Position numbers and translations under genes: made by a program. Of a stretch of 64,000 bases of DNA, positions 7,182-31,761 are shown in pieces (positions within the stretch are counted from its first letter, which is position 1; the number at the start of each line of letters is the position of its first letter). The notes under the pieces were generated by a model. It ran no database searches, was not told the DNA's origin, and saw only the letters and a list, made by a program, of their open reading frames with translations. The stretch is from NCBI GenBank assembly GCA_035712365.1, contig DASTAW010000027.1, positions 62,001-126,000 of the forward strand, read 5' to 3'. Origin of the DNA: Terriglobia bacterium (GTDB taxonomy: Bacteria > Acidobacteriota > Terriglobia > UBA7540).

Positions 7182-8150
7182 TCAGCCGCGCCCGGAGCCG
7201 ACGCCCGATTCCTGGAGCATTTCTTCCACGATGGAATGTGGATCGCGCCGGCGCGCCAGAATTGCCTCCACGTATTCGCTGATCTGTTTCTGGTCAATCC
7301 GCTCCTCAGCAACCCGTTCGAACAGGCGTTGACGTAACAATTCCAGGAGGTGCAGACGGGCGTTTTCGCGCCGTCGATTCAGCCCTGCGGAACTGCCTTC
7401 CGTCGCCGCCCGGAATTTCTCCAATTCTTCACACAGTTCGGATATTCCCTCACCCGTTGTCGCCGTCGTTTTAACAATGGGCGGGCGCCAGGCATCCAGC
7501 TTCGTCCCCACGGACAGCAGTGCGTCCAACTCGCGTTCCATGCGCTCGGCGCCCGGTTGATCGGATTTGTTAATCACGAAAAGGTCCGCAATCTCCATCA
7601 CACCGGCCTTAAAAGTCTGAACACCATCACCCATGCCCGGAACCAGAACGACGACGGTGGCGTCGGCGAGGCGAGCCACGTCCACCTCGGCTTGTCCCGC
7701 CCCTACTGTTTCAATGAACACTACATCACAACCTGCGGCATCAAGGATGAGGGCTGCGTCGCGTGCAGCGGGTGCAAGCCCGCCCAGTTGTCCGCGGGTT
7801 GCCATGCTGCGAATATAGACGCCCTCATCGGTTGCAAGCGCCTGCATGCGAATGCGGTCGCCCAGAATAGCGCCGCCTGAAAACGGACTGGTGGGATCCA
7901 CCGCAACGATGCCTACACGCTTGTCTGACCGCCGGAATTCCGTGGCCACCTTTCCGAGCAGAGTGCTCTTGCCCGCCCCTGGCGCTCCTGTAACACCGAT
8001 CGTGTATGCCTGACCGGCCTTATGAAAGAGGGCGCGCAGCAACGCCGAGCTTGAGGGTCCTTTCGTCTCAACCGAGGAGATTGCCTGTGCAACCGCCCGC
8101 CGGTCCCCGGCGCATATCTTCTCAACCCACTGTTCAACAGAGATACCCAT
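7182..8150 (-). CDS. meaB: Methylmalonyl-CoA mutase-associated GTPase MeaB
   Basis: A G3E-family P-loop GTPase that protects methylmalonyl-CoA mutase and gates its B12 cofactor loading. Walker A is GVTGAPGAGKSTLL; VGIVAVDPTSPFSGGAILGD, GVYIRSMATRGQLGG and VVFIETVGAGQAEVDVA are the MeaB/ArgK signatures; FVINKSD is the G4 motif. The C-terminal arm needed for dimerisation is present. ATG 8150 (MGISVEQWVEKICAGDRRA) matches the usual family start; a GTG at 8210 would overlap the acyl-CoA dehydrogenase gene by 26 bp. Neither start has a good Shine-Dalgarno. The short gap to the dehydrogenase suggests one operon. Confidence 0.94.
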   Translation of the reverse strand: MGISVEQWVEKICAGDRRAVAQAISSVETKGPSSSALLRALFHKAGQAYTIGVTGAPGAGKSTLLGKVATEFRRSDKRVGIVAVDPTSPFSGGAILGDRIRMQALATDEGVYIRSMATRGQLGGLAPAARDAALILDAAGCDVVFIETVGAGQAEVDVARLADATVVVLVPGMGDGVQTFKAGVMEIADLFVINKSDQPGAERMERELDALLSVGTKLDAWRPPIVKTTATTGEGISELCEELEKFRAATEGSSAGLNRRRENARLHLLELLRQRLFERVAEERIDQKQISEYVEAILARRRDPHSIVEEMLQESGVGSGRG

Positions 8151-8184
8151 CAATTCATCACGCGCGCGATGCACAGCAGATGCG

Positions 8185-9357
8185 CTACGGCAATTTCCCC
8201 AGAGACTCACGGGCGATAATCAGCCGCTGAATTTCGCTGGTGCCCTCACCGATCGTACACAGCTTGACGTCCCGGTAAAACTTCTCGACGGGATACTCTT
8301 TGATAAAACCGTATCCACCGTGAATCTGCACTGCTTCGCCCGCAATCCTCACCGCGATTTCGCTGGCAAACAGCTTGGCGATGGAGCTTTCGCGCGTTAC
8401 TCGTTCGCCCCGTGTCGCCAGAGCGGCCGCCCGCCACGTCAGCAGCCTTGCTGCGTCGATTTCGGTGGCCATGTCGGCCAGCTTGAAGCGAATGGCCTGA
8501 AAACTGGCGATGGGCCGTCCGAATTGCTCCCGTTCCCGGGAGTGCCTGAGCGACTCTTCGAATGCGCCCTGCGCTATCCCTACGGAGAGCGCCGCAATGG
8601 AGATGCGTCCTCCATCCAGGACCCGCAGGCTGTCAATAAATCCCTGCCCCTCTACACCCAGGCAGTTCTCCTCCGGAATTCGGCAATCCTCGAAGATGAT
8701 CTCTCCTGTATTGCTGGCCCGCATGCCCAGCTTGTCTTCGGCCTTGCCGGGTCGGAAGCCGGGAGTTCCCTTTTCGATGATAAACGCGGAAATTCCATGC
8801 TTACCCTTGGCCTTGTCAGTAACGGCCATGGCCACACAGGTGTCTGCGTAATGGCTGTTCGTAGTAAATGTTTTCGAACCGTTAAGTATCCAGGTATTAC
8901 CTTCGCGCCGCGCGGTGGTGCGCGTACCACCCGCGTCCGACCCCGCGCCGGGCTCAGTCAGACTCCAGCAGCCCAGTTTGTCACCCTGCGCAAGTGGGAC
9001 AAGGTACTTCCTTTTCTGCTCCTCGGTGCCAGCGAGCAGGATGTGATTGGCGCAAAGGGAATTGTGCGCTGCCACAACCAGCGCGATAGAGCCGTCAACT
9101 CTTGCCAACTCCTCAATTGCTATGACATAGGGAATGTACCCAAAACCGGCGCCTCCGTATTTAGCAGGCACGGTTACGCCCATCAGCCCCAGCCTGGCAA
9201 GCGCAGGCAAAAGTTCGATCGGAAAATGTTCGGCCGCATCCCATTCGCGAACGTGAGGGCGTATCTCCTGCTCCGCGAAGGCCCGCACCGAATCCCGAAT
9301 CCCACGTTCCTCGTCCGTCAATTCGAAATCCAGCCTGCACCTCCGCCCACGCCGCAC
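8185..9357 (-). CDS. Acyl-CoA dehydrogenase (short-chain type)
   Basis: An FAD-dependent enzyme that makes the alpha,beta double bond of acyl-CoA. It has the FAD/substrate motif [15 protein letters not shown], the flavin-loop [16 protein letters not shown], and the C-terminal [34 protein letters not shown] with the catalytic Glu in IGEGTSE. About 380-390 residues, as in butyryl-CoA-type members. The upstream edge is a GTG at 9357, but GGAGGT lies inside this frame, five bases before CTG 9333. Starting there gives [14 protein letters not shown], the normal family N-terminus, so the real start may be that CTG. The substrate chain length is not readable. Confidence 0.92.
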
Positions 9358-9377
9358 TGACCGCTCGATTCAGGGTT

Positions 9378-9383
9378 ATTCTA
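9378..9383 (-). promoter_or_regulatory. Candidate -10 element (TAGAAT) before the acyl-CoA dehydrogenase run
   Basis: On the minus strand GCATGTTAGAATAACC holds a -10-like TAGAAT, 20 bases before GTG 9357 and 44 before CTG 9333. The same GCATGTTAGAATAA string occurs just before the heptose adenylyltransferase gene near 60905. No convincing -35 was found. Confidence 0.4.
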
Positions 9384-9481
9384 ACATGCTTAAGCCTGAT
9401 GCCTTTTGCTGCCACACATCTCTTGCGTAGGTTATTGCTGCTTTCGGCGGCATCTTCCGTGATACTATTGTGTCCAAGAAT

Positions 9482-10243
9482 ATGAACACCCGTCCTCACA
9501 TCCTTCTCCTTTCCGCTCTTATGCTCATGGGCAACACCTGCGGCTCGGCCAAATGGTTGCTCGGAAAGAAACACGCGAACGCGGCGCCATCGGCCACAGT
9601 TTTGGCCGTATCGGGGAAGGACGGTTGTAAGGTGGATGTCGATGGCGAGGATGCCGGGACCACCGGGAGCGACGGTGTCCTGGTGATTAAGGGCGTAGAC
9701 TCAGGTAACCATTACATCCATGTGCAGTGTCCGAACCAGCGCGAAACTTCCTATTTTATTTCTGCTATCGCAGGACAGCGGATGGAACTCGATGCCCGGT
9801 CGGCTGATAGCAGCTCCGGAGTGGCGGAATCCGTCTCCCTGAATCCTGCCGCGTCCGAGATGCAGTTGCGCAATATGGTTTCAGAGGCGGATCAACTGCG
9901 GTCGAGCGGCCAATTCAAAGAGTCTGTCGATCTCCTGCGGAGAGCAACGCTGCTTGACCCGAGAAACGGAGATCTGCACCGGGAACTCGGGATTACCTTC
10001 CTCATGTTCCATGACTGGGAGAGCGCCAAAGTAGAAATGCTGGAAGCTGTCCGCCGCGATCCTCAAAGCGTTGATGCGCACAGCGGACTGGCATATGCGC
10101 TCGAAAAGCTGGGCGACCTGGACGGAGCGCTCAAGGAATACCGCACTTGCACTCAGATGGATCCGCACGACACCGAATACCGCGACCATTACGTCGAAGT
10201 CCTTGGTATGTTGTACAGCGAGAAAGCGGATAAGAAACACTGA
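9482..10243 (+). CDS. Exported TPR-repeat protein
   Basis: A 253-residue protein with an N-terminal hydrophobic signal (ILLLSALMLMGNT, first 25 residues), then a beta-rich PEGA-like segment (VSGKDGCKVDVDGEDAGTTGSDGVLVI). Three or so tetratricopeptide repeats follow (about 135-245: EADQLRSSGQFKESVDLLRRAT, GDLHRELGITFLMFHDWESA, DAHSGLAYALEKLGDLDGAL). TPRs are protein-binding scaffolds. The residue before the early Cys is Thr, so it is not a standard lipobox. It is the only plus-strand gene in this part of the window and stands alone. A GTG at 9470 is an alternative start. Confidence 0.75.
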   Translation: MNTRPHILLLSALMLMGNTCGSAKWLLGKKHANAAPSATVLAVSGKDGCKVDVDGEDAGTTGSDGVLVIKGVDSGNHYIHVQCPNQRETSYFISAIAGQRMELDARSADSSSGVAESVSLNPAASEMQLRNMVSEADQLRSSGQFKESVDLLRRATLLDPRNGDLHRELGITFLMFHDWESAKVEMLEAVRRDPQSVDAHSGLAYALEKLGDLDGALKEYRTCTQMDPHDTEYRDHYVEVLGMLYSEKADKKH

Positions 10244-10273
10244 GCGCACCTCACCTACTCTTCCTTTCAGCCG

Positions 10274-10287
10274 GCGGGTTAACCCGC
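10274..10287. repeat. 14-bp perfect palindrome between convergent genes
   Basis: GCGGGTTAACCCGC is self-complementary and lies in the 70-bp space between the 3' ends of the TPR gene and the threonine aldolase gene. It may act as a bidirectional terminator or be one of the dispersed palindromes of this genome. Confidence 0.5.
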
Positions 10288-10312
10288 TATTTGCCAAGGT
10301 GTGGAAGGAGGC

Positions 10313-11374
10313 TCACGCTCCTACGGAATTTTGCGCGACCGCGAGAACCGCCCGCAGCACGCTGAGCGCCCGCTCGCAACCTGCGTGGTCAACGTCAAAG
10401 TGCGTCACCATGCGCAGGATTGAGGCGCCCGTAGGGTTCGCCAGCACACCCTGCGCGGCCAGACGCTTTGAGACTTCCCTGGCGGTGAGTCCGCTGGCCG
10501 ACACATCGAAAAAGAGGATGTTTGTTACGACCTTGGCCGGATCGATTTCCACGCCGGGGATTTCCGCCAGTCCTTCTGCCAGGAACTTCGCATTTTCATG
10601 ATCAATATGGAGGCGCGTCGGGCTTTCTTCAAGCGCCACCAGTCCGGCTGCGGCCAGAATTCCCGCCTGCCTCATTCCACCACCCAGCATCTTGCGGACA
10701 AGCCGCGCCTCTTCGATGAAGTCCTTGCACCCCAGCACCATTGACCCCACCGGCGCGCCCAGCCCCTTGGACAGACAAAACATGATGGAGTCAAATTTTC
10801 GCGTCAGTTCCACTACAGAGCGTCCGAGCGCTACGCTGGCGTTAAAGATCCGGGCGCCGTCCAGGTGGACCGGCAGGCCCCGCTGATGCGCACGGTCACA
10901 TATTTCATCGGAGATTGCAAGCGGATAAACGGACCCGCCTGCAAGATTTGACGTGTTCTCCAATTCAACCAAACCCGTACTGGCGTGATGATCACTGCGG
11001 CGGCGGATGAGGGGTTCGACCTGCTCCCATCGCATGATCCCGTCCTCGGCTACAATCGTCCTTGGCACGACACCCGAAAAAGCTCCCATCATACCCATTT
11101 CGTGATTGTAAATGTGTGCGCGCGCCTCGCAAATCACCTCCCGGCCAGGCCGCGTGTGGACCTTGAGCGCCGTCTGATTCCCCATGGTGCCTGAAGGAAC
11201 CAGGAGTGCGGCTTCACGGTTGAAAATTTCGGCAGCGCGCTCCTGGAGACGATTGACCGTTGGGTCTTCGCGGTACACGTCATCGCCCACTTCCGCCTCT
11301 GCCATTGCACGTCGCATTGCCGGCGTCGGACGAGTCACCGTGTCACTGCGCAGATCAACCCTTGATTGACCCAT
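10313..11374 (-). CDS. ltaE: Low-specificity L-threonine aldolase
   Basis: A PLP-dependent fold-type I enzyme that splits threonine or allo-threonine into glycine and acetaldehyde. It has [51 protein letters not shown]-like [12 protein letters not shown], and the PLP lysine in [13 protein letters not shown]. The 353-residue length is usual. ATG 11374 is chosen because GGAGAG precedes it by six bases; an upstream start at 11401 would add nine residues. It follows hemW at 32 bp on the same strand. Confidence 0.93.
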
Positions 11375-11406
11375 GTTAATCTCTCCAGTCTCGAACATCA
11401 AGTGCG

Positions 11407-12588
11407 TTAGACGCCGACGAATTCCTGGAAGATCTCGTTTGAAACCAGGAGCGCTTTTTCCGCCAGGCGCACCCGGCCGTTGTGCAGCTCAAGCCAACCG
11501 TCACTTTCAAGCGACCGGATCTTCTGAGTCCACCGGTCAAGGAGTCCGCTGCCCCAGCGGCGACGGGCCTCGATCAGATTAATCCCATCCAACTGGCGAA
11601 GTCCGAGAAAAAAGAACTCCTCCAATTGCGCTTCGGAGTTCACCCGCCGCTGCTCGCAGATTGGCGACTCTCCCTGTGCCAGGCGCCTTTCGTATTCTTC
11701 CACCGCCGTGGCGTTTTCCCAACGGAATTGCCCGTCGGAAGAGTGTGCGCCTGCGCCCAGGCCCAGGTACGGTTCCAACTGCCAATATTTCCGGTTATGG
11801 ATCGATTCGCGGCCCGAAACCGCGAAATTTGAAATCTCATAGTGACGGTAGCCCGCCTGGCGCAATCGCTCGCGCCCCAGTTCGTATGCATCAACCATGA
11901 AATCATCATCCGGGATTTCCCCAGCGTGATAGCGTATGCCGTGGCGCAGTACTTCACCGCCCAGGCGGCTCTTCTCGTCAATTTCGAAAAGATAGAGGGA
12001 GAGGTGCTCTGGCGTCTGCGCGATCGCAGAATCTAATGAAGAGTTCCAGGAGCCTGGCGTCTGGTGCGGCAGCCCGGCAATCAAATCCAGGCTGACGTTA
12101 TCAAAGCCCTCATCACGCGCGGTTCGAATCAATGCTCGGGTGTCATCAGCAGAGTGTAGCCGTCCGACAGAGCACAGCTCGCCATCATCAAAGGACTGTG
12201 CACCGATACTGAGGCGGTTAATGCCGAGAGTCCGGACATGTTTTAGAAAATCCTTGTCCGCCGATCCCGGCGTGACTTCCAAAGTGAATTCCACGTTGGG
12301 ACTAAACCGGAACAGCCGGTGAAGTCCAGCGACCATCTGATTGAGGCGATCGGCTCCAAGGAGTGAGGGCGTTCCTCCCCCTATGTAAACCGAGTCCACG
12401 GATTTCTGGAATATAGTCGGCGCTATTCCAGCCCTCCCATAAATTTCCGGTAGGCTGTCGATTTCCCGGACCACGGCCTGGCAGTAGGCGTCATAGACGT
12501 CCGCGCGAGCTACTCGCGAACTGAAATTGCAGAAACTGCACTTTGAGGCACAGAAAGGGACCTGGATGTAAAGGCCGAGCATTTCCAT
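11407..12588 (-). CDS. hemW: HemW-like radical SAM protein (HemN family)
   Basis: A radical SAM protein with the cluster motif [12 protein letters not shown] (CxxxCxxC). After it come [26 protein letters not shown] and [16 protein letters not shown], all typical of the HemN/HemW group. At 393 residues it is the short HemW type, thought to be a heme chaperone, rather than oxygen-independent coproporphyrinogen oxidase (about 450 residues with an extra N-terminal segment). It starts 2 bp after the YjbQ stop, so the two are likely co-translated. A second Met two codons later is an alternative start. Confidence 0.9.
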
Positions 12589-12590
12589 GG

Positions 12591-13037
12591 CTAATCCGAG
12601 ACAAGCTTGACGTAGAGGTCTCGCCGGCGAGGTCCGTCAAATTCACAAAAGTATACGCCTTGCCAGCGGCCGAGCAGCAGGCGATGGTCCTCAATCAGAA
12701 GTGTTCTGGTGGCGCCGAGGAGGGTTGCCTTGAGGTGAGAGTCGCAGTTGCCGTCGTTGTGGCGATAACCAGCGGCGGTAGGCGCAAGCCGCTTGAGGAA
12801 GTCCGCAATGTCCTCGCGGAGACCTGGGTCGTAGTTTTCGTTGATCAGGACCGCCGCGCTGGTATGCGGAACGAACACGTGGCACTGGCCGCTCTCGATT
12901 TCCGATTTCTCGACCAACTGCTCGATCTGGCTGGTAACATCTCTAAACTCCACGCGGGAGTTGGTCTCAATATGAAGAGTGTGGCGCTGATTTTTCGGTT
13001 TTTCCGCGCTTGGGGCCCGTGCTTGCTGCTCAGACAT
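12591..13037 (-). CDS. YjbQ/UPF0047 family protein
   Basis: A 148-residue protein of the YjbQ family (secondary thiamine-phosphate synthase activity is reported for members; the physiological role is unclear). Conserved blocks: HVFVPHTSAAVLINENYDPG, LREDIADFL, YRHNDGNCDSHLKATLLG, and GRWQGVYFCEFDGPRRRDLYV. The grouped His, Asp and Glu residues suggest a metal site. The first 15 residues are charged and poorly conserved in style, so the start is approximate. It is followed almost without a gap by hemW. Confidence 0.9.
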   Translation of the reverse strand: MSEQQARAPSAEKPKNQRHTLHIETNSRVEFRDVTSQIEQLVEKSEIESGQCHVFVPHTSAAVLINENYDPGLREDIADFLKRLAPTAAGYRHNDGNCDSHLKATLLGATRTLLIEDHRLLLGRWQGVYFCEFDGPRRRDLYVKLVSD

Positions 13038-21481: not shown

Positions 21482-21614
21482 TCGTTCTCCGTGCGGAGCG
21501 TTTCAGGTCCGGGTTGGGTGCTTCTGCACAGCCGGCCTCCTGTGCCCCGATGATACGTTTCAGCCGTCGCCAAAAAATTCCGGGTGATGAACTTACAAAA
21601 GGTTGCATAATCTA

Positions 21615-21705
21615 GTGACACGTTGTTTTTGTAGCGCCGCCGTCTCGGCGACATTTATCGAGGCCGGTCCCGCTTGGCGGGACCGGCGCTACGCGAAAAC
21701 GTCAC
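21615..21705. repeat. Composite palindromic element (REP/BIME-like) upstream of carA
   Basis: A 91-bp unit whose ends are inverted: GTGAC...GTAGCGCCG on the left and CGGCGCTAC...GTCAC on the right. Inside are two hairpins, CGCCG-TCT-CGGCG (21638-21650) and an 11-bp stem GCCGGTCCCGC-TTG-GCGGGACCGGC (21663-21687). The CGGCGCTAC tail recurs at 28308-28320 and 31503-31513. It lies between the lepB stop and the carA start. Such elements are usually non-coding, transposase-dispersed repeats that can affect mRNA ends or supercoiling. Confidence 0.75.
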
Positions 21706-21768
21706 TATATTTTACAATCCTCAATAAGGCCATGAGGCCGTTTTCAATCTGCCCGCACCGGCTGCGGC

Positions 21769-27247: not shown

Positions 27248-27444
27248 CGATTGCATCTCAACGCGCCACGGCTGTTTTACTTACAAGGAGCCCATGGCGT
27301 GCTCCAGGCGGAAACTGTTACGCAATATACCCGGCCAGCAGGTCTCCGCTTAACGTGCTTCCCGCACGTTCTTCACCTCCCTACTCTTTTAGTAGCTGGG
27401 CCCGCTGTGTTATGTTTTCGCTTCGTTTTTTCGGCCCCCCTAGT

Positions 27445-27640
27445 GTTTTCAACAAGATCGGTAGCTTTGTTTTTAGGTTCGTTCCGGTTTGTTTTTTCCA
27501 CAGCTACGTGTTTTCAACAACTTCTCCGCTTTGTTTTAGGTTCGTTTCCGGTTCGTTTTTTGGCAATTTTCCTTTGTTTTCAACAACCTCTCCGGTTCGT
27601 TTTTCAAAAAACGTGTTTTTTTGTCCCATTTGCCTCAAAA
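27445..27640. repeat. T-rich tandem repeat, about 65-bp period
   Basis: GTTTTCAACAA begins at 27445, 27510 and 27576, a period of 65-66 bp. The first two units share GCTTTGTTTT, AGGTTCG, CCGGTT and a T-tract in the same order. The third unit is partial (GTTTTCAACAACCTCTCCGG then a T-tract). The strand is strongly T/pyrimidine biased on the plus side. Frames through it give no protein-like sequence. The rest of 27248-28090 holds no recognisable gene; a run of GGAGTCAG/AAGTCAG direct repeats lies at about 27930-27970. Confidence 0.75.
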
Positions 27641-28096
27641 CCAGCGCGAAAAGTGCCTTTTGGGGGACTGCAAAAATTCGCTCGTTGCCGGCACGTATTT
27701 GTCACCTGCCACTGCGAAAACCGCTGGGCCAACCATGGGCCGCGCGCTACAGACACCCCGCTTCATTCCCTGATCCTGCACCGCCAATTTCGATGTTTAA
27801 CCTGGCAGGTTTTGCCTGCCTCTCTGCAAGACTTGTGCCCGGCCCCGCGCCTTACCGGGAACCACTCTGTAAAGACTACCATAGCTAGCCTACTAAGTCA
27901 AGCAAAATCGGCGGGAGAGGCTGGAAGGCAGGAGTCAGGGGCCAGAAGTCAGGAGTCAGAAGTCAGGAGCAGCGGGTCAGTGCTTCAGAATTGCCCGATG
28001 ATCGCTTCAGGGGCTGAAGCCCGTTGGATCGAGGAGTCTGACAAGTGTCGGAACTGAAGCTCCGACCTCCTGAGGAGCCTTACCAGCAGATTCCTC

Positions 28097-28157: not shown

Positions 28158-28265
28158 TTACGCAACCCGCTGTTCAATGTGCGCGCGCAGTTCCTTGCTC
28201 AACTCCGCTTCCATGGAATCGCGCCGCAATGGAGTCCGCAAACGGTAAAACAGATCGCCGAGCAC
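28158..28265 (-). pseudogene. Truncated copy of the ADOP permease 5' end
   Basis: From GTG 28265 the minus strand encodes a 35-residue peptide that starts [20 protein letters not shown] and goes on to KELRAHIEQRVA, then stops. This closely matches the first 33 residues of the intact permease ([20 protein letters not shown]). The upstream leader, including a palindrome and a CCGGATCGAGGTGAATCG string, is also shared with the intact gene. The rest of the permease is absent, so this is a relic of a duplicated or deleted second ADOP gene. Confidence 0.8.
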
Positions 28266-28291
28266 GATTCACCTCGATCCGGAAAATGCCA

Positions 28292-28308
28292 GTCCCGCAG
28301 GGCGGGAC
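28292..28308. repeat. Palindrome in the leader of the ADOP relic
   Basis: GTCCCGC-AGG-GCGGGAC (7-bp stem) followed by CGGCGTTACAAC. The same tail follows the palindromes at 21663-21687 and 31489-31506. Confidence 0.65.
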
Positions 28309-28356
28309 CGGCGTTACAACTTCCGTTCAATCACCAAATCACGCAATCACAATTCA

Positions 28357-31020
28357 TCATTCGTGTCGCAGGGCCGTCATGGGATCGACGTTGGCCGCAC
28401 GGCGGGCGGGAATATAGCAGGCCGCGAGCGCGACGGCGATGAGGATGAGCGAGACGGCGATGAACGTGACCGGGTCGGTAGGCGTGACGCCATAGAGTAA
28501 GCTCGCGAGGAATCTTGTAAGCGCCAGCGCTCCGGCAACGCCGAAGGCCACGCCGATCAACGCCAGCCTGAGCCCCTGCCCGATCACCATCCTGAGAACG
28601 TCCCGCCTTTCCGCGCCCAATGCCATGCGGATGCCGATTTCATGCGTCCTCTGCGCGACCGAATAAGAGATCACGCCGGAAATCCCGACTGCGGAAAGAA
28701 GCAAGGCCAGACCCGCGAATATGCTGACCGCGGTCATGGGCAGCCATACGTGTTCCCATGAAGCGACATCATGTCTCATCCGGTCGAAACCGAGGAGCGC
28801 CACTTCGCTGTCTACGGATCGCACCGCCGCTCGCACGGTCGGAACCAAGCTCATCGGCTGGACGGCAGTCCGAAGGACAAAGATCATTCCGTGCTGGGCA
28901 GGATATTGGGAATACGGAAGGTAAATTCGCGGGCCTTTGCTGAGCACTGGACCACGCAAGAAGATGTCTTTGATAACGCCGACAATCAGGATAGGCTGGG
29001 GCGGCGCATTGGGGTTTTCGTATCCGTAGATTTGCGAAAGAGGTACAATCTGCCGCCTCACGGGATTGACGTTTGGGAAATACACTCGCGCAAAACTCTC
29101 ATTGACGATGGCAACGGGAGGCGCGCTGGCCGTGTCCGCTTGCGTCAACTCCCGCCCTGCGATCAAAGTTGCCCTTAGCGTGTGCATGAAGCCAGGCAGA
29201 ACAGCCTCCGCGTCAGCGCTTGGCTCTTGGCCGGGAGCAGGGGGCGGCTGCCCTTCCTGTCTGAAGACCAGCCTCCCGCCTGGGATGAAACCAGCCGCAT
29301 CCGTAACGCCTGGCAGTGCGCGGAGTCGAGCAAGGATTTCCTCGACATGTTCAGACTCTTGAATGCCAGTCTTGTATTTGTATGGCGGGAAGGCGGTATC
29401 GAACGTCAGCACATGGTCGGGGTCGAAGCCGAGATCTGCGTTCAAGAGATTGGTGGACGTGCGTATCAGGAGGCCAGCAGCCGTCACCAGCGCCACCGCG
29501 AGCGCAATCTCAGCGACGATGAACCGGCCGCCCACCTTGCTTCGTCCCGCTGTCGTTGTGACCGCGGCGGCAGCTTCCTTCAGTGATCCGTTCAAGTCTA
29601 CCTTTGTTGCGCGGAGCGACGGTACAAGCCCGAAAATCACAGCCGTGATCACTGAAAGGCTCAAGCAGAAGATAAACGCCGAATCGTTCAACGCAATGCC
29701 TTGTCGGCCAGGAACCGGGTAGTGGTTTGCGGCGAGCGCGAGTAAATCGACTCCGATCCACCCGACAAAAATTCCAGCCAGACCCCCAGCGAGGGCCAGC
29801 AGAAGGCTCTCCATCAGCAGTTGGCGGACGATTCGCTTCCGTCCGGCACCTAACGCCGCTCGAACGGCGATTTCCTTCTGGCGGACGGAGGAGCGGGCCA
29901 GCAGCAGATTTGCCACATTGACGCAGCCGATCAGAAGCACAAGGAGCGTAGCGGCCGCAATGGCTAGCAGCGACTCTGGGACTGACTGGCGGTAATAAGT
30001 GGAGAGCAGCGACCTGACCTTCAATCCCCATCCTTGGTTTGCACTTGGATACTGTTTCGCTAGGCGAACTGCGGCGGAGTCCATTTCCGCCTGCGCGCTC
30101 GCCAGCGTCACACCAGGACTTAGACGTCCCACAACGCTCAACGTGTGACTCGATCGCTCGCGCTCGGACAAATCTTCCGAGCTCAGCGCGAGCGGGGTCA
30201 ATACATTGGTGTCCACGTCCATTACGAAGTAAAATCCCTTGGGCATAACACCCAGAACTGTATAGGGCTTGCCGTCCATTTGGATCGTCTGGCCGATGAT
30301 GTCGCGTCGACCCCCAAATTGCCGCTGCCAGAAATCATATCCGAGCAAGGCCACACGGTCATTGCCGGGTTCGAACTCACTCGGTGCAAAAGCACGGCCC
30401 AAGATCGGGTCGACGCCGAGAAGCTTGAGAAACTCTGGTGAGATCGCGGCGCCGACCAGATACTCCGCCGACTTGGGAGTGCCCAGAAAAGGACGCTCCC
30501 AATGGTAGTAGCTGATCTCTTGAAACCCTTGGCTATCCTTTTGTAAGTCAACGACGTTCAACGCAGACAACGGGACCTGGGTGGATTCCGTTCCCCCGCC
30601 ACGACGCTGTTGATAAATGGCAACCAGCTCGCCGGGCTGTGGGTAGGGGAGCACCCGCATCACCACAGCGTCAAGGAAGCTGAACATCGCGGTATTCGCC
30701 CCAATTCCAAGGGCCAGGGTCAATACCGCCACCGTCGTGAATCCGGGGTTGCGGCGAAGCTGGCGCGCGCCGTAGCGAAGGTCTTGTGCGAGTTCACTGA
30801 CGATGCGCACGCCCCAACTTTCACGGCAATCTTCTTTGACCTGCTCGATGCCGCCGAATTCGAGCCGTGCTCGCCGTGCCGCCTCCTCCGGAGACATCCC
30901 TGCCTGGACATACTTCTCCGCCTGCTGTTCGACGTGCGCGCGCAGTTCCTTGTCCAACTCCGCTTCCATGGAATCGCGCCGCAAGAGAGCCCGCAACCGG
31001 TAAATTAGATCGTGGAGCAC
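28357..31020 (-). CDS. ADOP-type ABC transporter permease (MacB/FtsX family)
   Basis: An 887-residue fused permease. A short N-terminal cytoplasmic region ([20 protein letters not shown] onward, with [16 protein letters not shown]) is diagnostic of acidobacterial duplicated orphan permeases. TM1 (about 97-117, [20 protein letters not shown]) and a MacB-like periplasmic domain follow. A first FtsX block comes at about 350-480, then a second periplasmic domain, a second FtsX block and the ending [14 protein letters not shown] proteins lack a neighbouring ATPase; their substrate is unknown. The start is GTG. A PadR gene lies 35 bp upstream, the usual partner and probable regulator. Confidence 0.92.
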
Positions 31021-31055
31021 GAATCAACTCGATCCGGCAGGCGCCGGACGCGCCG

Positions 31056-31388
31056 CTACGCTGTTTCCAACACTCGGCCGACCGCAGCCGCGAGTTTGCG
31101 CCAGGCGCTTTCCTCGGCCTCAAGCTGTTTTCTTCCGGCTTCCGTTAACTCGTAATATTTCGCATGCCGGCTGTTTTTCGTCATGGACCATTGGGCCTTG
31201 ATCCATCCGCGCCGCTCGAGGCGATGCAGCGCCGGGTAAAGAGAACCCTGCTTGATGGTCACCACGTCCATTGAAATCTGCTGAATGCGCTCAGAAATCG
31301 CCCAGCCGTGCTGCGGTTCAAGAGCCAGCGTCTTGAGGATTAACAGGTCGAGCGTCCCCTGCGGCAGATCGATTCGGCTGTCTGTCAT
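31056..31388 (-). CDS. PadR-family transcriptional regulator
   Basis: A 110-residue winged-helix repressor: LPQGTLDLLILKTLALEPQHGWAISERIQQIS, then IKQGSLYPALHRLERRGWIKAQW (recognition helix and wing), then a C-terminal dimer helix (YYELTEAGRKQLEAEESAW). PadR proteins of this short class commonly precede ADOP permeases and are thought to control them in response to small molecules. The ATG lies three bases after the stop of a 24-residue relic of the ADOP 5' end, whose GGGTAGC provides a ribosome-binding-like sequence. Confidence 0.93.
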   Translation of the reverse strand: MTDSRIDLPQGTLDLLILKTLALEPQHGWAISERIQQISMDVVTIKQGSLYPALHRLERRGWIKAQWSMTKNSRHAKYYELTEAGRKQLEAEESAWRKLAAAVGRVLETA

Positions 31389-31391
31389 AAG

Positions 31392-31466
31392 CTACCCTTT
31401 CGCTTCTACTTCCACGAATTTGCGCCGCCATAGAGCCCGCAAAGGGTAAAACAGATCGCCGAGCAC
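31392..31466 (-). pseudogene. Second ADOP 5'-end relic directly before padR
   Basis: From GTG 31466 the frame reads LGDLFYPLRALWRRKFVEVE then AKG and a stop. It matches the beginning of the intact ADOP permease and shares its leader (GGATCGGGGTGAATCGTGCT). It ends three bases before the padR ATG. It may be only a relic, or it may now serve as a short leader peptide that couples ribosomes to padR. Confidence 0.75.
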
Positions 31467-31488
31467 GATTCACCCCGATCCGGCAAAT

Positions 31489-31506
31489 GCCGGGCTGAAG
31501 CCCGGC
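31489..31506. repeat. Palindrome GCCGGGCT-GA-AGCCCGGC
   Basis: A perfect 8-bp stem followed by GCTACAACG, in the leader of the padR-proximal ADOP relic. It is the third occurrence of the palindrome plus CGGCG(C/T)TAC arrangement. Confidence 0.7.
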
Positions 31507-31761
31507 GCTACAACGTCCTGGCGATCTCCCAATCGCAAATCATCGAGTACCCTCTCACTTCTACAGCAAGCATCTTATTTCCGCCGGTGTCGAAGCGCAA
31601 GGGTAAAATAAGACTCAGTTGTTGCCTTAATGATGAGCCGGTGCCGGTCCGGTGAGCTTGTGCTGGTGAAGGAAGCTTGGAGAACCAATTATAAATTATG
31701 AATTCTGAAGGCCGAAGCCGACACTCCCTCGGCGGTCTGTATCTCACTGAAAATGACCAAA

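Follow-up and report, generated by a model that had tools for sequence, protein, structure and literature searches.

Why should one locus carry the start of a gene three times and the rest of it only once? The question is raised by a 64,000-nucleotide stretch of the Terriglobia bacterium genome assembly GCA_035712365.1 (contig DASTAW010000027.1, positions 62,001 to 126,000 of the forward strand; hereafter the window), which holds a gene for an ADOP permease behind a gene for a PadR regulator. A sequence-only reading had noticed that the minus strand repeats the same module, a leader followed by the first ADOP codons, at 31020 (copy A), 28265 (relic B) and 31466 (relic C), and that only A is intact and belongs to a PadR–ADOP pair. 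Both observations were borne out, the first by pairwise DNA identities in BLAST comparisons (A–B 87% over 117 bp, B–C 88% over 83 bp and A–C 79% over 85 bp) and the second by protein family profiles; the likeness of the three copies is not due to chance, because the expectation (E) values lie between 6e-37 and 8e-16 within the window. The explanation that we favour, and consider probable from the sequence comparisons described below, is that the repeated unit is the leader together with the first ADOP codons, one locus-specific head that belongs with this PadR and of which copy A works. PadR, leader and head would then form a chassis bound to the locus, whereas the body of the permease would be exchanged, and B and C would be orphan heads. 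The observations behind this are that different bodies occupy the same site in different species, that tandem neighbours share heads and have unrelated bodies, that PadR covaries with the head and not with the body, and that the change-overs between the two parts lie near shared motifs.

The most direct evidence comes from the corresponding site in a sister genome of the same genus (G001, locus L156), which is anchored by 3.4 kb at 73% identity over a sigma-54-type regulator (so named from a reading of its sequence) and the genes that follow it. There the order is PadR (88% DNA identity), a thioredoxin/DUF3738 protein and an ADOP. When the DNA of the two ADOPs is compared by codon in bins of 40 columns, identity is 75–83% over codons 1–76, 70% over codons 77–116, 35–62% over codons 117–790 and 76–78% in the tail, and the two syntenic bodies share 30% of their amino acids. 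Over codons 77–887 the window ADOP is 63–84% identical in DNA to an ADOP at locus L159 (metagenome-assembled genome, MAG, DBS2-1.bin101), the head of which is unlike (49–50%), and the window's own genome carries, on contig C41, a headless ADOP to which the G001 ADOP is 57–83% identical. The C41 body has one counterpart in G001 at E≤1e-150, and this lies at the PadR locus (73% amino acid identity), a match that suggests movement without giving its direction.

Two further pairs of loci show the same pattern between conserved surroundings. In L107/L187 (genomes G000 and G002) the upstream DNA from −1179 to −512 is 86% identical and PadR with the head, from −450 to 487, 80% identical; past position 487 nothing matches at E≤1e-8 until a 185-bp piece of the tail (78%), after which the downstream DNA matches at 81%. 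In L104/L185 identity is 85% from −1910 to 358 and resumes in the tail (77%) and then further down (72%). The body is what changed at these two pairs, because flanks, PadR and head stay there. Headless ADOPs provide a contrast, four pairs in matching arrays of G000 and G002 having kept their bodies (76–93% amino acid identity in each third). It might be argued that heads move and not bodies, either by gene conversion from the PadR-proximal gene onto its neighbours or as cassettes of head and PadR that jump in front of existing bodies, since neighbours share heads up to identity and since B and C themselves witness that head copies do arise. The extreme case is a pair of neighbouring ADOPs at locus L238 of G046 (7481–10103 and 10210–12688, minus strand, reverse-complement coordinates), in which the 23 aligned head codons are 100% identical in DNA and the bodies 42%, and which is perhaps a very recent head copy. 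However, flanks, PadR and head are kept at L107/L187 and L104/L185 and the body alone differs, and we therefore regard this explanation as unlikely, although head conversion may take place within arrays besides body exchange.

Adjacent ADOPs were compared in two sets. In the first (set 1), nine genomes contributed 77 ADOPs; of the 23 tandem pairs formed by adjacent genes, 15 could be aligned over at least 45 head codons. Set 1 is not a random sample, because most of its loci were picked for being the best matches of the window ADOP, to which all ADOPs of the window's genome were added. The second was drawn from four genomes of three other families and held 61 ADOPs and 30 adjacent pairs, nine with comparable heads. 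Pairs below this threshold of 45 codons, mostly headless ones, were dropped (8 of 23 and 21 of 30, respectively). Heads were more similar than bodies in all 15 pairs of set 1 (heads 75–94%, bodies 40–50% DNA identity) and in all nine of the second set (65–94% as against 43–60%). The bodies of tandem neighbours had a median amino acid identity of 31%, compared with 32% for ADOPs at other loci (393 pairs, the heads of which were 35% identical), and in set 1, with 57 candidates, the closest head belonged to the neighbour in 23 of 30 cases and the closest body in one of 30. The tract of similarity runs from near the start codon to mostly about 100–150 nt beyond the prefix (55 nt in two pairs) and in one array takes in about 200 bp of upstream DNA; the tail, too, often stays with the locus, with up to 93% DNA identity between neighbours.

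The same comparison serves to weigh the view that heads are simply the slowest-evolving part of these genes, and that tandem ADOPs are old whole-gene duplicates with bodies that diverged fast under relaxed or diversifying selection and were never exchanged. Heads do evolve more slowly, as the vertically inherited pair L183/L108 (G002/G000) illustrates (head 83%, body about 59% amino acid identity). Nevertheless, where the two genes encode the same residue, tandem heads use the same codon in a fraction of 0.71 of cases, compared with 0.36 for their bodies and 0.45 for heads at other loci, and this synonymous agreement therefore points to recent DNA ancestry of the tandem heads and not to protein selection alone. 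Slow heads also fail to account for the near absence of neighbours among best body matches in set 1, for close body counterparts under unlike heads in other species, or for a PadR similarity that is uninformative about the body (the last two are described below), so that we give this view very little credence.

The regulator follows the head. A PadR gene lay upstream on the same strand, within the stretch fetched, for 53 of 58 headed ADOPs of set 1, compared with 2 of 19 that had fewer than 45 aligned head positions. Among 38 loci of this set (703 pairs) PadR similarity correlated with head similarity (rho 0.62, matched by 0 of 500 permutations), whereas no correlation with body similarity was seen (rho 0.00, 226 of 500). 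In the 28 pairs with PadRs at least 80% identical, heads were at least 55% identical in 27 and bodies at least 50% identical in none; when every array gene was counted, a body at least 50% identical was shared in one of 22 cross-genome locus pairs with PadRs at least 85% identical. Conversely, in 18 of the 19 set 1 pairs with bodies at least 55% identical and comparable heads, the heads were unlike (14–51% amino acid identity). A second sample, chosen by PadR alone, started from 63 loci. A usable linked ADOP was missing from 16 of them, and of the 47 linked ADOPs that remained two lacked a comparable head, leaving 45 in 990 pairs. Of the PadR places listed for each genome, 5 of 5 were used from G004, 3 of 4 from G034, 1 of 1 from G005, 2 of 2 from G021, 28 of 34 from G007, 24 of 28 from G023 and none from G025, G012, G006 and G022, and the 47 linked ADOPs came from G007 (20), G023 (21), G004 (3) and G034 (3). 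Some of the G004 and G034 loci overlap set 1, which leaves the sample independent for G007 and G023 only, and in both samples pairs share loci and hence are not independent of one another. The outcome was similar, with rho 0.52 for heads (0 of 500 permutations) and 0.06 for bodies (111 of 500). All 15 pairs with PadRs at least 80% identical, five of them within one genome, had heads at least 55% identical, and one had a body at least 50% identical; among ten pairs with bodies at least 50% identical, nine had unlike heads (24–39%) and likewise unlike PadRs (38–56%).

The places at which one ancestry gives way to the other suggest how the exchange might occur. In binned profiles the similarity of tandem pairs drops to background at about codons 114–138, the similarity to body orthologues rises at codons 74–82, and this first change-over lies around a conserved 25-letter block of the protein. 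The second lies near codon 797, at a 10-letter protein motif. Homologous recombination would place such points inside DNA common to donor and recipient, and change-overs around these shared motifs fit with homologous recombination between paralogues. We propose that regulator, leader, head and often tail stay in place and that the body (about codons 80–795) gives way to the body of a different ADOP, the likeliest route being homologous recombination in two motifs, of 16 and 10 letters, that ADOPs share. In the HsdS genes of type I restriction systems, target domains pass between paralogues through recombination in the conserved segments that flank them; there, likewise, a variable segment is exchanged and the chassis stays, but in the ADOPs some 700 residues of a membrane permease would be exchanged, and what is kept is a short head next to a transcription regulator. 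Polymorphic toxins and the swapping of sensors among chemoreceptors and histidine kinases also join a fixed module at one end to an interchangeable module behind it, as in the ADOPs, but in the ADOPs the tail is often kept too, so that the middle is the cassette. No toxin domain was present among the profile matches of the window PadR and ADOP proteins, and no inversion or site-specific recombinase was seen, although none was searched for.

Relics B and C concern the history of the window locus itself (Table 1). The promoter-like region and leader ahead of PadR are unbroken in the sister and split by 138 bp in the window, with the 17-bp sequence GTAGAAG(T/C)GA(G/A)AGGGTA on both sides of the split, which makes C, on this alignment, an insertion relative to the sister or the result of duplication then deletion. 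The frames of 35 and 24 codons that had been read in B and C do exist, although in C, where the frame ends in a TAG 6 nt ahead of the PadR ATG, homology to ADOP stops at about codon 19 and the remaining codons are the second copy of the PadR leader, GTAGAAGCGAAAGGGTA. As to microhomology at the breakpoints, which the sequence-only reading had proposed to look for, GGAA is joined to the PadR leader at the 3' junction of C, and the 5' junction of C lies near an ATGA common to the spacer before B; the 3' break of B lacks a comparison genome. B and C look like dead copies, because changes are spread evenly over codon positions 1/2/3 (A–B 5/5/5, A–C 4/4/4, B–C 3/4/1) and because C is absent from the sister site. 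In position and spacing, relic B, which keeps 35 of the 75 head codons, corresponds to the next headed ADOP of an array, and it would be the stump of a second tandem ADOP that has lost its body and tail. Relic C would be a short copied head inserted into the PadR leader with a 17-bp duplication of the leader, having arisen perhaps by templated insertion, perhaps by tandem duplication and deletion. The last codons of another ADOP stand ahead of the intact gene in the sister, and B might therefore have come from an old tandem pair lost differentially; this origin was not adopted, because A and B (87%) are closer to each other than to the sister, which they resemble at 79 and 72 of 105 positions, respectively. 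It is very improbable, in our judgement, that the shared leader is instead a selected regulatory unit (a PadR operator or leader peptide lying before PadR in C, before the ADOP in A and behind the ADOP in B), which would suit the ribosome-binding-like stretch and hairpins kept in B and C and the end of C 6 nt before the PadR ATG, readable as an upstream frame, but not a sister PadR without such a unit in front, the even codon-position changes, or hairpins with stems that differ between B and C and that at A are weak and partly PadR's own end.

Table 1. Positions in the window of the PadR–ADOP pair, its parts and the two relics
Feature	Coordinates	Strand	Evidence
Copy A, intact ADOP permease, 887 residues, GTG start at 31020	28357..31020	−	TIGR03434, 874.8 bits (cut-off 622.3)
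Head of A, codons 1–75, prefix domain, part kept at the locus	30796..31020	−	NF038403, 65.8 bits
Conserved block of the 5' head/body change-over, codons 74–113	30682..30801	−	Binned identity profiles
Body of A, about codons 80–795, segment probably exchanged	28636..30783	−	Codon alignment with sister ADOP and L159
Tail of A, codons 790–887, sister-like (76–78% DNA)	28360..28653	−	
Leader of A, PadR stop to ADOP start, carries the CCGGATCGAGTTGATTC motif	31021..31055	−	
PadR regulator	31056..31388	−	TIGR03433, 151.2 bits (cut-off 101.8); 88% DNA identity to sister PadR
Relic B, 35 ADOP start codons, start at 28265, TAA at 28158–28160	28161..28265	−	87% identity to A over 117 bp
Leader of B including hairpin	28266..28326	−	Hairpin z −4.5
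Insertion C relative to sister: spacer, hairpin, leader, about 19 ADOP codons, start at 31466	31410..31547	−	
17-bp direct repeat, outer copy of the PadR leader	31548..31564	−	
17-bp direct repeat, inner copy by the PadR ATG, giving the last codons of relic C	31393..31409	−	

Duplication and decay at this locus are thus supported by the even codon-position changes and the absence of C from the sister, as had been claimed; the wider suggestion, that they may show how the family spreads, does not hold as stated. When 758 kb of ADOP neighbourhoods were scanned with a profile, B was recovered (E 3e-7; best E on reversed sequence, 0.48), together with four ADOPs that are truncated or interrupted, of which one lies at a contig edge; orphan heads thus seem scarce, and such relics are not a common footprint. 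Tail fragments are commoner, with five stretches at four loci (E<0.003, frames below 100 residues; control 0.76). A decayed, frame-shifted ADOP tail of about 60 codons lies downstream of an intact ADOP at L110 (847–1109, minus strand), and at the sister locus L156 (10259–10403, minus strand) what seem to be the last codons of a lost ADOP, ending in GVDPTVALRYE and a stop, stand directly ahead of the start of the intact ADOP, with a weak match in the profile scan (E 0.24). In the 19 kb at the corresponding place in G002 there was no DNA match to PadR or ADOP. Synteny by way of HrcA failed, as that gene has other neighbours in both same-genus genomes.

A number of points weigh against the exchange of bodies behind fixed heads, or against parts of it, and should be considered together. 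Both outer flanks aligned with clear DNA identity in only 2 of 11 locus pairs, many of the fetched flanks being short, and some loci are inherited whole (one of the 15 PadR-chosen pairs, with a body identity of 79%, and one of the 22 cross-genome pairs). The second tandem set is weaker than the first: one of its pairs has fairly similar bodies (60% DNA, 53% amino acid identity), and the neighbour provided the closest head in 10 of 18 cases and the closest body in 5 of 18. The dropped pairs include two with short heads that are unlike, at L178 of G001 (21 codons, 41%) and L239 of G046 (28 codons, 33%); the L238 pair of G046, with its short identical head, was also among those dropped. At the window locus the likeness of the 5' spacer of C to that of B is modest (17 of 21 positions, reached in 6 of 2000 shuffles), and apart from the four truncated or interrupted genes no orphan head like B was found elsewhere in the 758 kb. 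The assemblies are mostly fragmented, with one per species, and misassembly of repeats could mimic some of the mosaics, though hardly the colinear cases. Finally, DNA on the 5' side of a crossover stays together by linkage, and the covariation of head and PadR is therefore no proof that the two interact.

What the two parts do may be considered with this in mind. The window genes match the ADOP (TIGR03434), perm_prefix_1 (NF038403) and acidobacterial PadR (TIGR03433) definitions, all three above cut-off; TIGR03434 covers the ADOP at full length (profile positions 1–803 of 803), two stretches each match MacB_PCD and FtsX, and 35 bp separate PadR from the ADOP start. By structure prediction (mean predicted local distance difference test score, pLDDT, 81), the window ADOP is most like YbbAP (E 6e-19, template-modelling score 0.47), followed by MacB and, lower, BceAB. 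These three work together with an ABC (ATP-binding cassette) ATPase, whereas the window ADOP, which resembles them in predicted fold, sits beside PadR, and no ATPase was found among the window neighbours scanned (PadR, HrcA, GrpE, DnaJ, a squalene-hopene-cyclase-like protein and a DUF362 protein). The absence of an adjacent ABC ATPase is part of the definition of ADOP. The head alone gives a weak helical model (pLDDT 64), has no usable relative among PDB sequences (best E 0.019, to a designed protein) and, in the three heads tried, no match in Pfam. It is probably cytoplasmic, because it precedes the first hydrophobic segment (residues 97–116). We hypothesize that the head acts together with PadR, although linkage alone could explain their covariation. 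A bolder and tentative suggestion, which we think possible but doubtful, is that headed ADOPs are membrane receptors and not transporters, with the cytoplasmic head as an output fitted to its own PadR and the periplasmic body as an exchangeable input cassette. This would fit the position of PadR upstream of most headed ADOPs of set 1 and few others (53 of 58 and 2 of 19), and the finding that four headless pairs keep their bodies whereas ADOPs at PadR loci do not; if true, exchange of bodies between loci and species would rewire what the regulator responds to.

The ADOPs are a large and unexplained family of the Acidobacteria, with 38 members over the cut-off in the genome studied here, and the pattern offers a function that can be tested, in which the short head may work with PadR and the body supplies specificity. 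Should regulator and head be fixed and the body behind them exchangeable, a tree built from entire ADOPs would be misleading, and each module would need its own assignment of orthology. To our knowledge the ADOP and PadR family definitions are silent on exchangeable bodies, and a search of the literature, with subscription papers and preprints outside its reach, returned no account of them. One report counts 102 such permeases in MAG CO124 (PMC10564751).

The leader, which the sequence-only reading had proposed to look for at every ADOP gene and had taken as a possible sign of how the family spreads, was found at this locus only. Module B gave 21 DNA matches at E≤0.01 in its own genome (40 of 60 candidates scored), of which three are A, B and C, one is confined to coding sequence (44 bp) and 17 consist of the palindrome alone. 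The part of the leader that follows the hairpin was found at no other locus of this genome in a short-word BLAST comparison with DNA that includes all 38 ADOPs (best 22 matches for each query). Four of 100 other genomes had a match at E≤1e-6, with five hits in all (at most eight candidates scored per listed genome), and these fall within positions 64–170 of a query with its start codon at 76, so are almost wholly coding. A family-wide leader is therefore unsupported, because the leader was found at this locus only; what extends to other PadR-linked ADOP loci is a start that is repeated or kept and a body that differs.

The palindrome, too, had been placed at every copy. It does stand ahead of the two relics, where a hairpin of the GTAGCGCCG type adjoins the leader, with stems that differ and flanks that are alike; at A, the GTAGCGG is the stop codon and 3' end of PadR and is common to the sister species. 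A weak hairpin is possible at A as well (z −1.3, compared with −1.5 for C and −4.5 for B). The hairpin of B and C resembles a dispersed palindrome and in this respect is like repetitive extragenic palindromic (REP) elements and the REPINs built from them, the palindrome of B being present at 17 other places and a 131-bp relative in at least 40 copies. Its head reads GTAG in C and GTAA in B itself. REP elements and REPINs are mobilised by a cognate RAYT transposase; the genome has nine Y1_Tnp matches over cut-off, not linked to this hairpin. A search of the region against Rfam gave one match, below the gathering score (E 0.24).

The 131-bp element occurs in the window at 21610–21740 (minus strand), where imperfect terminal inverted repeats surround two facing GTAGCGCCG hairpins. 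Of its at least 40 genome copies (40 of 76 candidates scored), twelve are 92–100% identical to this one and most others about 80–85%. The possibility that relic C is a fragment of this repeat was rejected, as the likeness is limited to the hairpin flank. A second dispersed repeat lies at 27400–27955; it is about 550 bp long, contains a tandem unit of about 66 bp and has copies at 87–97% identity on contigs C7 and C64, the C64 copy adjoining tandem ADOPs. At L105, L179 and L185, in three genomes of one genus, a REP-type element (GTAGCGGCGCGTTTACCGCGCC..GGCGGC..) lies 3' of ADOP genes, and beyond it about 30 bp of the ADOP tail are repeated; in L105 and L179 its GTAG provides the TAG stop of the ADOP.

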